Shown here piece after piece: positions 24,235 to 27,244 of a DNA stretch of 64,000 nt (its first letter is position 1; the number at the start of each line of letters is the position of its first letter). The stretch is from positions 1-64,000 of the forward strand of contig NZ_JADLZT010000004.1 in assembly GCF_015453285.1 (NCBI RefSeq). The letters are read 5' to 3'. This DNA is from Lysobacter niastensis. Its GTDB lineage: Bacteria; Pseudomonadota; Gammaproteobacteria; Xanthomonadales; Xanthomonadaceae. Below the pieces are notes generated by a model. The model made no database searches and was not told where the DNA came from. It was given only the letters and a program-made list of their open reading frames with translations. The translations under genes and the position numbers were made by a program.

Positions 24235-25461
24235 TCACCCCTTGATGCACACCACCTGGCGCAGCGTGTGCACGATCTCGACCAGATCCGTCTGCGCCGC
24301 CATCACCGCGTCGATGTCCTTGTAGGCGGCCGGCGACTCGTCGATCACGCCTGCGTCCTTGCGGCACTCGACGTGCGCGGTGGCTTCACGATGCTGCTTC
24401 AGCGTGATTTCCGCGCGCGCCCGCGTACGGCTCATCACGCGGCCGGCGCCGTGGCTGCAGCTGTGGAAGCTATCCGCGTTGCCCTTGCCGCGCACGATGT
24501 AGCTGCGCGCACCCATGCTGCCCGGAATGATGCCGAGCTCGCCTTCGCGCGCGCTGACCGCGCCCTTGCGCGTCACCAGCAGTGAATCGCCAAAATGGTC
24601 CTCGCGCTGGACATAGTTGTGGTGGCAGTTCACCGCCTGCTTGTCGGTCTGGAACTTCGGCAGGCGATGGCGCATCTCGTGCAGCACCCGCGACATCATC
24701 GCGTCGCGGTTGGCACGCGCGTAGTCCTGCGCCCACGACACCGCCTCGACGTAGTCGTCGAACAGCGCCTCGCCCTCGAGGAAGAACGCCAGGTCCTTGT
24801 CGGGCAGGTGGAAGCCGAGCACACGCTTCTCCAGCTGGCGACGTGCCAGCTCGATGAAGTAGGTGCCGATCAGGTTGCCGGTGCCGCGCGAACCCGAGTG
24901 CAGCATCACCCAAACGTGGTCGGCTTCGTCGAGGCAGATCTCGATGAAGTGGTTGCCGCCGCCGAGCGTTCCGATCTGCTTGTCGACCTTGTCCGGACGG
25001 ATCTTCGGGTGGCGCGAGCGGATCGCCGCCAGGCGCGCCATCAGCTCCGACTGCGCCAGCCGCGTCTCGATACTGTCGGGAATGCGGCGATGCTCGCCGC
25101 CCGGACCGTTGCCGACCGGGATGCTGCGCTCGATGGAGTTGCGCAGCAGCGCCAGGTCGTCGGGCAGGTCGTCGGCGCGCAATGTCGTGCGCACCGCAGC
25201 CATGCCGCAGCCGATGTCGACGCCGACCGCCGCGGGGATGATCGCGCCCTTCGTGGGCACGACCGAGCCGACGGTCGCGCCGATGCCCAGGTGCACGTCG
25301 GGCATCACGGCGACCCACGGCCCGACGAAGGGCAGCGCGGTAATGTTGCGCAGCTGCTGCCGCGCCTGGTCCTCCACCGGAACGCCGTGCACCCAGCCCT
25401 TGATCGGCGTGCGTGCACCCTCGGCATGGAGGAACTCGAATTGCGTGTGTTGCATGTTCAT
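24235..25461 (-). CDS. rtcB: RNA-splicing ligase RtcB
   Basis: RtcB joins RNA 2',3'-cyclic phosphate (or 3'-phosphate) ends to 5'-OH ends using GTP and Mn2+. This 408-residue protein has the same length as the Escherichia coli enzyme. Active-site motifs are VGVDIGCGM (Cys85), GTLGGGNHFIE (Asn170, His171), MLHSGSRGTGN (His188), NCHHNYVQ (His281) and HSCSHGAGR with the guanylated His337. It lies 56 bp after the slipin gene on the same strand. No rtcA, archease or RtcR-type regulator is in the window. The likely job is repair of cleaved tRNA or rRNA, and here it sits with two tRNA-like RNAs. Confidence 0.96.
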   Translation of the reverse strand: MNMQHTQFEFLHAEGARTPIKGWVHGVPVEDQARQQLRNITALPFVGPWVAVMPDVHLGIGATVGSVVPTKGAIIPAAVGVDIGCGMAAVRTTLRADDLPDDLALLRNSIERSIPVGNGPGGEHRRIPDSIETRLAQSELMARLAAIRSRHPKIRPDKVDKQIGTLGGGNHFIEICLDEADHVWVMLHSGSRGTGNLIGTYFIELARRQLEKRVLGFHLPDKDLAFFLEGEALFDDYVEAVSWAQDYARANRDAMMSRVLHEMRHRLPKFQTDKQAVNCHHNYVQREDHFGDSLLVTRKGAVSAREGELGIIPGSMGARSYIVRGKGNADSFHSCSHGAGRVMSRTRARAEITLKQHREATAHVECRKDAGVIDESPAAYKDIDAVMAAQTDLVEIVHTLRQVVCIKG

Positions 25462-25517
25462 GGGAATCCTTCCTTGAATGAAGACTCCGCGTGGCGATTC
25501 CGTCCGCCACGCGAAGT

Positions 25518-26642
25518 TTACTGCTTGAGGCTGACCAGCTGCTTCATGACGCCATCCAGGCCGCCGAACACGGTCAGCTTGTCGATCTTCTCGGTGACCT
25601 TCTCAAGAGCTTCCAGCTCCTTCAGTCGCATCAGCACCGGGCTCTCCTCGATCAGGCGTGCCGTGTTCAGCAGCGAACGCGTGGCGTTCGCCTCCTCACG
25701 ACGACGGATCACGTTGGCCTGGGCCGCCTTTTCCGCCTGCACGACGCTGTTGAGGATCTCCTTCATCTCGCCCGGCAGGATCACGTCCTTGACACCGACA
25801 CCGAGCACCTCGATGCCCAGTTCGACGACGCGACCGCGCACGTAACCGAAGATGTCGGCGTCGAGCGAAGCCTTGTCGCCGAGCAGCTCGTCCAGCGACT
25901 TGGCGGCAATCGCCTTGCGCAGGCCGAACTGCAGCTCGCGGTACACGTAGTCGCCGTACTTGGCGACCTTCGTACGTGCGGCCACCGGATCGGTGACGCG
26001 GATGCTGGCGGCGAGGTTGACGCGCAGGCTCACCTTGTCGCGGGTCAACAGCTCCTGGCCCGAGACTTCCAGCGACTGCACGCGCAGCTCGATCATCTCC
26101 ACGCTCACGTTCTTCTGGAAGTTCCAGAAGGCGTACGCGCCAGCGCCGAGCGTGCGCACGAGCTTGCCGTCGACGAACAGCAGGCCGGCGGTCTCCTCCG
26201 GCACGATCAGCGACACCGCCAGACGCTCGAGCATGCCGAGCTGGCGCAGACGCTTCACGACGCCGGCCTCGATCTCCAGCCCCTGGGCCAGCGACACGGC
26301 CTGCACTTCGACGGCCACGACGCCCTTCCAGTACAGCTTGCGCGAACCCGGAGCGAGCACATCTTCGAGCTTGCCGTTCCTCATCAGCAGGCCCGCCTCG
26401 TTGGTGCCGAGGTTGGCCAGCACGAAGGTGTCGCCCAGCTTTTCGCCGAGCACGGCGATCAGCGTGTCGGAATCGCGGCAGGCGTACTCCGGCTTGCTGA
26501 TGTCGTGCACGACAACTTCGACGCGGCGCAGCGGGTCGAACCAGCGGTACACGCCCGCGGCCAGCACGCCTGCGAATTGACGGTTGCGATACACCAGGCC
26601 GCGCTCGCCGTCACCGATCACGACCCTCTTGGTCCAGAACAC
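25518..26642 (-). CDS. Slipin (SPFH/band 7) protein with triplicated N-terminal motif
   Basis: I start it at a GTG at 26642 because AAGGAG lies 7 bases upstream; an in-frame start at 26687 has no ribosome site. The product has 374 residues against about 250-300 for common slipins. The band-7 entry motif (GLvyrnrqF..vLaaGvYrwF) occurs three times: residues 12-35, 81-105 and 150-175. The SPFH core (TRDKVSLRVNLAASIRVTDP onward) and the coiled-coil EKAAQANVIRRREEANATRS follow. No clear N-terminal membrane helix is seen. SPFH proteins form membrane-associated cages or rings. Co-directional with rtcB, it probably acts with the ligase. Confidence 0.88.
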   Translation of the reverse strand: MFWTKRVVIGDGERGLVYRNRQFAGVLAAGVYRWFDPLRRVEVVVHDISKPEYACRDSDTLIAVLGEKLGDTFVLANLGTNEAGLLMRNGKLEDVLAPGSRKLYWKGVVAVEVQAVSLAQGLEIEAGVVKRLRQLGMLERLAVSLIVPEETAGLLFVDGKLVRTLGAGAYAFWNFQKNVSVEMIELRVQSLEVSGQELLTRDKVSLRVNLAASIRVTDPVAARTKVAKYGDYVYRELQFGLRKAIAAKSLDELLGDKASLDADIFGYVRGRVVELGIEVLGVGVKDVILPGEMKEILNSVVQAEKAAQANVIRRREEANATRSLLNTARLIEESPVLMRLKELEALEKVTEKIDKLTVFGGLDGVMKQLVSLKQ

Positions 26643-26655
26643 GGGTGTTCTCCTT
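26636..26655 (-). promoter_or_regulatory. Slipin ribosome site with a palindrome over the GTG start
   Basis: AAGGAG (26655-26650) and the GTG start (26642) are spanned by AGAACAC/GTGTTCT (26651-26645 and 26642-26636) around two bases. In RNA this could hide the start codon and part of the ribosome site. In DNA it could be an operator. Confidence 0.5.
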
Positions 26656-26985
26656 GTTGGCTCTGGTGGTCCGATCCACTGAATCAAAGGCGCGCGAGGG
26701 ATCGGTCATCGCGTGCTGCAAAGAAAAAGATGGAAACGCCCCTGACGCCGATGCCGCGAAGCCCGCGCGCTGTCTGCGCGGAGATTCCGGCGGGCAACGC
26801 GGCAGGCGATGGATTGCCAGTGCCGCGCATGCAACCGGTTCCGCGCGCATTCGGGACGCGGGCCCGGCGACATCGCCGCTGCGGGATGGCGTTGCACGAT
26901 GCGATGGACTGCATCGCCTGGCGCCACGCCGCACAGGGCGTTTCCTGTTTGGGGCTTTCGCCCCGGATCAACGACGTAACAGGTC
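26656..26985 (-). other. Noncoding spacer between tRNA-like B and the slipin gene
   Basis: I find no gene in these 330 bases. Just behind the second tRNA-like sequence, GGGGC-GAAA-GCCCC (26964-26951) forms a hairpin with a GNRA tetraloop and no T run. CGATGC/GCATCG near 26900-26920 may form another. The region may be a long untranslated leader of the slipin mRNA. Confidence 0.45.
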
Positions 26986-27055
26986 GTTTTGGAGCGGGAA
27001 TCGAACCCGCGACACTCGGTGTTTAACCGATGCTCTACCCGACTAAGCTATCCAG
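26986..27055 (-). ncRNA. tRNA-like sequence B
   Basis: It starts directly after the CCA of sequence A. It has TA at positions 8-9, a D stem GCTT/GAGC (27048-27045, 27035-27032) with loop AGTCGGGTA, a 4-bp anticodon-type stem TCGG/CCGA (27030-27027, 27019-27016) around TTAAACA, and a T arm GCGGG-TTCGATT-CCCGC (27010-26994). The acceptor is only four pairs, TGGA/TCCA, and no CCA follows. The loop would give anticodon AAA with C37, where a purine is nearly universal. I read it as a tRNA mimic or decayed tRNA rather than a working tRNA. Confidence 0.7.
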
Positions 27056-27125
27056 TGGTGGACGAACCGGAATCGAACCGGCGGCCAACGGCTCGCGCCG
27101 CTGCTCTGCCTCTGAGCTACCGTCC
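27056..27125 (-). ncRNA. tRNA-like sequence A with GCGA tetraloop in place of the anticodon loop
   Basis: The 70-nt sequence folds as a cloverleaf: 6-bp acceptor GGACGG/TCGTCC with discriminator A and encoded CCA (27125-27120, 27065-27056); TA; D stem GCTC/GAGC with loop AGAGGCA (27117-27103); arm GCGGC-GCGA-GCCGT (27101-27088); 5-base variable loop TGGCC; T arm GCCGG-TTCGATT-CCGGT (27082-27066). The D-loop GG and T-loop TTCGA are intact. The anticodon loop is replaced by a four-base GNRA loop, so it cannot decode. It lies upstream of slipin-rtcB on the same strand. Confidence 0.82.
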
Positions 27126-27244
27126 GCTCTCGAAACACCGTCTCGCGATCCACGGCATGCACCACGGCAATGCCGCGCGCACCAGGCGGGTGAGGCTTCA
27201 GGCCACGAACCCGCACCGCGATGGATCGTCCGTCGATGTTTCGC

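Follow-up and report, generated by a model that had tools for sequence, protein, structure and literature searches.

Two tRNA-like sequences lie on the minus strand of Lysobacter niastensis contig NZ_JADLZT010000004.1, directly upstream of a slipin gene and of rtcB, which raises the question of what a tRNA-shaped RNA does in front of RNA-repair genes. The stretch analysed here comprises the first 64,000 nucleotides of this contig (the window), and all features described below are on its minus strand unless another locus is named. rtcB (24235..25461) encodes a 3'-5' RNA ligase of 408 amino acids (Pfam RtcB, 414.8 bits), the single match to this family across the whole genome, and begins 56 nt past the stop codon of the slipin gene on the same strand. 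The slipin gene (25518..26642) encodes an SPFH protein of 374 amino acids that matches Pfam Band_7 (E 1.4e-29); from the sequence we place its start at the GTG at 26642, downstream of an AAGGAG (26650..26655) that is likely its ribosome-binding site. The two tRNA-like modules, referred to as A (27058..27126) and B (26990..27054), score 43.2 and 41.6 bits against the Rfam tRNA model, and the arrangement reported by the first-pass annotation was thus recovered with all four of its members. The strongest fact at this locus is that a conserved tRNA frame carries a fast-changing anticodon loop in front of RNA-repair genes. We tentatively read the locus, from sequence comparisons, as an RNA-repair operon whose structured leader carries two tRNA mimics that may serve as bait in a particle of SPFH protein and RtcB, a reading to which we give somewhat less than an even chance.

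A and B do not look like decoding tRNAs. The Rfam gathering score for tRNA is 29, and the two modules rank last among the genome's 46 tRNA matches, the remaining 44 scoring at least 50.8 bits; ARAGORN calls both modules, but oddly. Module A has acceptor, D and T arms with a tetraloop, GCGA, replacing the anticodon loop. Module B has D and T arms and an anticodon arm with a variable loop, and its acceptor stem is 4 bp long and is kept short throughout 26 aligned rows; the B loop of the window reads best as 5 bp with a 5-nt loop, the alternative being 4 bp with a 7-nt loop. Because of the 4-nt loop of A and the short acceptor stem and best-read 5-nt loop of B, neither has the form of a decoding tRNA, and both look unable to read the code. 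In relatives, a simple stem search gave A loops of 4 nt in 37/77 and 7 nt in 12/77, with GNRA loops in 13, and of the 69 distinct B arms whose loop has 7 nt, 14 carry A34 triplets other than ACG and two would read stop codons. The proposal that these are mimics and not full decoding tRNAs is supported by the lowest Rfam scores and by shifting or unusable triplets. An encoded CCA stands immediately before B (27056..27058), and a CCA after A and directly before B is found in 20/26 aligned rows. This CCA favours a reading of expression control only, in which RNase P and related enzymes would trim a polycistronic leader at the tRNA-like sites and so set mRNA stability; however, B lacks a full acceptor stem, and trimming leaves unexplained the fast loop as well as the 5' element and 3' domain described below, which makes it quite improbable in our view.

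The modules accompany the slipin gene across relatives. A close set was formed from the best 80 of 214 slipin relatives of a contig scan (relative loci are labelled with L numbers), and these 80, the window and 8 loci of the genus gave 89 close loci, including a few near-duplicates across the two collections; six of the 80, all metagenome-derived, lie outside or above Xanthomonadales (L039, L044, L069, L084, L101 and L110). The nearest named slipin, from Lysobacter sp. M2-1, is 86% identical, and a slipin orthologue is present in 9 of the 12 genus genomes searched, with B in all nine. Tolerant matching found B in 86/89 close loci, mostly Xanthomonadales, and the three misses (L044, L092 and L107) have just 231, 360 and 121 nt of contig upstream; a stricter pattern found it in 72/89. 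ARAGORN called a same-strand tRNA upstream of the slipin gene in 62 of the 76 close loci that have 800 nt of upstream sequence, and two or more in 35, versus none in 21 upstream regions of other band-7 genes of the same genus. Farther away, a slipin profile at E<=1e-50 matched 23 of 398 phylum-sampled genomes (the source genome itself, five others from its order and 17 from outside that order), and there were 9 further matches in plasmid and chromid records, of which 6 were examined. This further set amounted to 28 loci, 27 of them with enough upstream sequence (21 from genomes and 6 from plasmids or chromids), and ARAGORN found a tRNA upstream of the slipin gene in 19/27 (5/5 in the same order and 14/22 outside it), so the linkage goes beyond chance. 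L135 has three tandem tRNA-like modules before its slipin (1087-1301). On the metagenome-derived contig of L110, the tRNA-like pair and slipin are preceded, at a distance of about 1.4 kb, by fourteen tRNA genes (30-2043). A covariance model of A and B was discarded as a specific probe, with ordinary tandem tRNAs matching it in 398/398 genomes; its seven best-listed matches all lie beside a slipin of the profile search.

The frame of the two modules is maintained by compensatory change. In a test on 26 chosen sequences from at least two classes (37 pairs, 958 cells), 97.6% of the cells were paired, both-side changes occurred in 25/37 pairs versus 14.2 in shuffles, and 132 cells had changed on both sides versus 31.4 in shuffles, a value reached by none of 500 shuffles. 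Shifting the partner by one to three columns reduced pairing to 35-45%. The D and T arms are nearly invariant across this alignment and the loops are variable. The folding energies of A, B and the pair as single sequences are not distinct from those of shuffles (z -0.98, -0.22 and 0.01), so the evidence for structure is covariation. These results also bear on an alternative, that ordinary or recently decayed tRNA genes lie upstream of the slipin by chance: ARAGORN and Rfam do call both modules tRNA, but the conserved linkage, the compensatory changes, the short acceptor stem of B in 26 rows and the shifting anticodons speak against it, and we give it almost no credence.

Within this fixed frame the anticodon loop of B changes fast. 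The arm has a five-pair stem in 84/86 and a 7-nt loop in 78/86 loci, and the 57 distinct arms with a 7-nt loop keep Y32 in 51, U33 in 38, A37 in 49 and A38 in 42 and carry 30 different triplets. Parsimony on a tree of 79 slipins, with 66 fourfold-degenerate (4-fold) sites of the slipin gene as reference, required 36, 25 and 27 steps at positions 34, 35 and 36; the rest of the loop needed 7-19 steps per position, the stem 3-19, and the 4-fold sites 11.9 on average (standard deviation (sd) 6.4, maximum 28). In 14 disjoint close pairs the triplet differs at 15/42 sites (36%) versus 248/3022 4-fold sites (8%; Fisher p 8e-7), other loop sites differ at 16/56 and stem sites at 9/140. Fast change of the B loop is thus observed, and diversifying selection on it is only suggested. 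The first-pass annotation had left open whether the mimics are decoys, sensors or guides, and from the fast-changing loop we infer that the decoy is favoured.

The same observations can be read as those of a scaffold RNA, whose modules, in the manner suggested for Y RNAs, would serve the SPFH protein, RtcB or tRNA-binding enzymes as docking sites while the loop, being unread, drifts. A scaffold explains the frame and the A tetraloops: the D and T arms are near-invariant while the loops vary, the A loop often has 4 nt (37/77), the Escherichia coli leaders described below show no anticodon arm, and loop rates, once normalised, overlap those of variable neutral sites. It leaves unexplained why B mostly keeps a 7-nt loop of U33/A37 type (7 nt in 78/86; Y32 51, U33 38 and A37 49 of 57), and the raw triplet change in close pairs, about four times that at 4-fold sites, also counts against it. 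We consider a scaffold a genuine possibility, if on balance a doubtful one. The bait reading is favoured because it accounts at once for the frame, the loop grammar and the presence of RtcB.

Two other origins of the loop pattern were considered and set aside. Counts of loop matches do not support the idea that B was copied from the anticodon arm of a host tRNA; the B triplets coincide with host anticodons in 50/69 cases versus 44.7 expected (p 0.02), a weak excess, the reference tRNAs in this comparison all being from the source genome alone. A kissing loop or other compensating pairing of the B loop in cis was likewise rejected, since in 71 leaders a leader's own loop was no more complementary than loops swapped between species (Watson-Crick plus G-U pairs 5.83 versus 5.86, Watson-Crick pairs 4.68 versus 4.59, sd 0.08 each); with the A region alone the values were 4.86 versus 4.71 (sd 0.08) and 3.27 versus 3.28.

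A and B are the middle of a longer structured and covarying leader that had been overlooked in the first-pass annotation. In 77 close-set leaders, four overlapping blocks contained 137, 539, 372 and 893 cells changed on both sides, and the largest values in 100 shuffles of the same blocks were 62, 193, 117 and 383; the structures here and in the A and B test come from the very alignments on which they were tested, and the rows share ancestry; each of these points works in their favour, and the margin is still large. Read along the minus strand, the order is a double hairpin, a hairpin, a 5' element, A, B, two small hairpins, a helix-closed domain, slipin and rtcB. The double hairpin (27437..27505), strongly conserved according to the conservation profile and the fold, stands at the 5' limit of strong conservation and may either terminate the unit upstream or form the leader's 5' end. 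It is followed by the hairpin TTGGCGTCATATGACGCCAA (27245..27266), which covaries in the 77 aligned leaders, and by the 5' element (27153..27219), a stem plus GGTGCGC-hairpin-GCATGCC that is supported by motif counts and covariation. The motif of this element is present in 65/76 close loci and in 0/76 shuffled ones, and recurs in 8/27 further loci (5/5 in the same order and 3/22 outside it), among them a record from Clostridia (L116). Directly 3' of B is a hairpin with a covarying stem (26971..26987), then a second covarying hairpin, GGGG-CGAAAG-CCCC (26951..26964), and the 3' domain is closed by a long-range helix between 26936..26945 (5' arm) and 26732..26741 (3' arm), predicted by RNAalifold with compensatory changes. 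A possible 38-amino-acid frame (27517-27633, minus strand) with modest conservation in the leader alignment lies just upstream of the double hairpin. At the other end of the locus, between rtcB and the upstream peptidase gene, an inverted repeat pair of the form CTCTCCCGCAnGCGGGAGAGGG occupies 23972-24096; matches to several microRNA-type Rfam models at 23967-24096 were below cut-offs, fell on these inverted repeats and were taken as chance.

The repair gene is a less constant companion than the RNA. The order of tRNA-like RNA, slipin and rtcB, predicted to be conserved, is kept in the close set and recurs farther away, but with the window RtcB as query tblastn found rtcB near the slipin in 17/28 further loci, mostly in 1.5-kb flanks, and in L131 the gene lies upstream of the leader. 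In flanks of mostly the same length no rtcB was found by tblastn in L113, L114, L129, L132-L134 and L136-L140; nor did it find RtcB in the wider flanks of L219-L222, from another class of the phylum, where none of five neighbouring frames scanned matched RtcB or RlaP. Because rtcB is not found near the slipin in many loci, the RNA and slipin form the more constant pair. In L113, L215 and L226 the gene after the slipin is RlaP, which Pfam names for an RNA-repair pathway, and in L226 an RtcB gene comes after RlaP. The leader of L114 together with the slipin start has matches in 1624/5426 complete E. coli genomes, all of them chromosomal. In L114 and L231 the gene next after the slipin encodes a nucleotidyltransferase. 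In L117 (3501-5081), from Burkholderia stagnalis, the slipin match falls into two overlapping parts, and this copy therefore looks interrupted. There was no match in 50,697 phage records, relatives were found on 4 IMG/VR contigs, and PADLOC gave no anti-phage defence match for the slipin or RtcB of the window. On one of the IMG/VR contigs (L216, 119-3524), ARAGORN called 24 tRNAs ahead of the slipin, the last of them, some 430 nt from the gene, being a B-like module.

Outside the order the leader stands behind a recognisable promoter. The leader is preceded by a sigma-54 site with 1-2 mismatches in 11/27 further loci, which are 11/22 of those outside the order (L112-L115, L117, L125-L128, L130 and L135), and base shuffles gave an equal score in 0-2% of trials; matches with 2 mismatches located elsewhere, 711 nt before the slipin in L116 and inside the tRNA-like pair in L120, were not counted. 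In the 76 close leaders the best score was 2 mismatches in 2 and 3-5 in 74. RtcR is the divergent neighbour in 3/3 loci tested (L113, L224 at the L126 locus and L225 at the L125 locus). Given the sigma-54 sites and the divergent RtcR genes, the leader belongs to RtcR-type operons in those taxa. In the family of the source organism RtcR is present in 6/60 genomes, with no match in the other 54. This distribution invites the idea of a cis sensor, in which cutting of the modules within the leader would alter expression of slipin and rtcB and so replace the absent RtcR. The modules lie upstream of both genes on the same strand, the long-range helix closes downstream of B, and RtcR has no match in the source genome or in 54/60 family genomes. 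However, the same leader type stands behind sigma-54 sites, with RtcR adjoining where tested, which would make a second sensor redundant, and the B loop is no more complementary to the 60 nt that immediately precede the slipin than swapped loops are. We consider a cis sensor unlikely.

The fold of the slipin itself was predicted. A first AlphaFold2 model, built from close relatives, was too poor to use (mean predicted local distance difference test score (pLDDT) 64.5); a second, built from 34 sequences, reached a mean pLDDT of 83.9 with a poor C-terminal end. It has three N-terminal beta repeats (approximately residues 4-47, 73-117 and 142-185), in keeping with the triplicated motif noticed earlier, followed by an SPFH domain and a long C-terminal helix; no membrane segment was seen by eye in the sequence. 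SPFH relatives form rings or cages. In a Foldseek search of the PDB human stomatin ranked first (E 5.7e-16, 225 columns, root-mean-square deviation (rmsd) 7.9), HflK/C appeared from rank 5 and rabbit major vault protein (MVP) at rank 17 (E 8e-11, 429 columns with gaps, rmsd 15.2); eight more vault chains were among the 50 matches listed, MVP rmsd values being 13-15 Å. TM-scores were similar, at 0.40-0.44 of the query for MVP and 0.42-0.44 for the top stomatin rows, and the long alignments of the predicted model suggest that the MVP match extends over both the SPFH domain and the repeats. Sequence search found stomatin, QmcA and HflK/C, and did not find MVP at E<=1; 16/16 slipins tested match Band_7, with no vault family among the 6 Pfam families listed. 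The likeness to the eukaryotic vault consists of a match by fold (best rank 17), and against it stomatin and HflK/C rank higher, there are three repeats only and there is no MVP sequence match at E<=1. It is conceivable, though we think it improbable, that the locus encodes a vault-like ribonucleoprotein, a small MVP-like SPFH protein that would enclose an RNA with a diversifying bait loop, be coupled to RtcB, trap tRNA-cutting toxins and mend their cuts.

How might a bait work here? The leader, which we take to be transcribed in the source genome, or a piece released from it, would form a particle with the SPFH protein and RtcB. Nucleases that attack anticodon loops would meet the tRNA mimics as tRNA-shaped bait; cutting of the bait would spare real tRNAs and bring the cut ends to RtcB, which would reseal them. 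Arms races with different nucleases are the proposed reason why the loop is fast while the frame is fixed. Several observations weigh against the bait reading. ARAGORN found no tRNA in 14/76 close and 8/27 further loci, the latter being L125, L128, L130, L131, L136, L113, L114 and L116, in which T-arm-like sequences are visible by eye. rtcB does not adjoin the slipin in several taxa. The leaders of E. coli and Citrobacter keep a T-arm-like module and no anticodon arm is seen in them, so the bait loop is not essential everywhere, and in the window neither the 5-nt loop of B nor the tetraloop of A imitates an intact anticodon loop well. Within the 14 close pairs, change at the triplet does not significantly exceed that at the remaining four positions of the loop (15/42 versus 16/56, p 0.51); in view of this and of the codon bias of 4-fold sites in GC-rich genes, a loss of constraint on the loop is possible. 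The composition-normalised ratios of the triplet (0.83, 0.67 and 0.98) overlap the values of the 28 4-fold sites that vary (range 0.48-0.95, mean 0.67). Finally, B loops match host tRNA loops exactly in 11/69 cases versus 8.5 expected (p 0.18).

Among known systems, one close in outline is that of Burroughs and Aravind, who in 2016 reportedly linked SPFH/Band-7 proteins and a novel tRNA-like molecule to RNA repair. What those systems are said to share with the window is a Band-7 protein, a tRNA-like RNA and an RNA-repair enzyme in one neighbourhood; in contrast to the tRNA-like molecule reported there, here a pair (three in L135) is set in a longer leader whose anticodon loop changes fast, and the genome has no RtcR. 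The first-pass annotation had drawn a parallel to the rsr-yrlBA-rtcBA operon of Salmonella, which is likewise described as an rtcB operon with an RNA bearing a tRNA-like domain (PMC7790460, PMC9879122). Membership in such a Ro60/Y-RNA system was not supported: unlike in Salmonella, a whole-genome Pfam search gave zero matches for RtcR, TROVE/Ro60 and RtcA, which extends to the genome the absence of these three noted earlier for the window. RlaP likewise had no Pfam match in the genome. The YrlA model (RF02553) scored 26 bits against a gathering score of 69 and so gave no Y RNA match, and between 18000 and 34000 no Rfam family except tRNA attained its gathering score.

Two further cases join an SPFH protein to RNA repair. 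In Pseudomonas aeruginosa the SPFH gene PaFlo8 is embedded among rtcA, rtcB and rtcR, and its deletion had no strong phenotype under the conditions tested, as far as the accessible text of the report goes, in whose main text the word tRNA does not occur (PMC13086221). In Anabaena the slipin alr0740 and the rtcB gene all3526 both rise on loss of TrcR, which also controls a long tRNA operon, according to the sections available (PMC10272220); unlike in the window, the two genes are non-adjacent by locus number, the regulator is another one and those sections mention no tRNA mimic. The tRNA array of L216 brings this co-regulated operon to mind. No tie of slipin, tRNA-like RNA and rtcB was found in the accessible parts of PMC7824862, PMC6514570, PMC9650030, PMC10630183 and PMC7159879, and no description of the tRNA-like leader turned up in the literature searched. 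Possible novelties are how large the RNA is and how it is built, its occurrence across taxa together with a common 5' motif, the rapid change of the loop and a fold resembling that of MVP.

The locus bears on the in vivo role of bacterial RtcB and on why repair operons hold SPFH proteins. A fixed tRNA frame with a fast loop offers a direct and cheap test of which tRNA nuclease gains or loses its grip, and the leader and slipin relative of E. coli make part of the question approachable in that organism. If an SPFH particle around an RNA is indeed formed, the vault would gain a bacterial counterpart with simple genetics.

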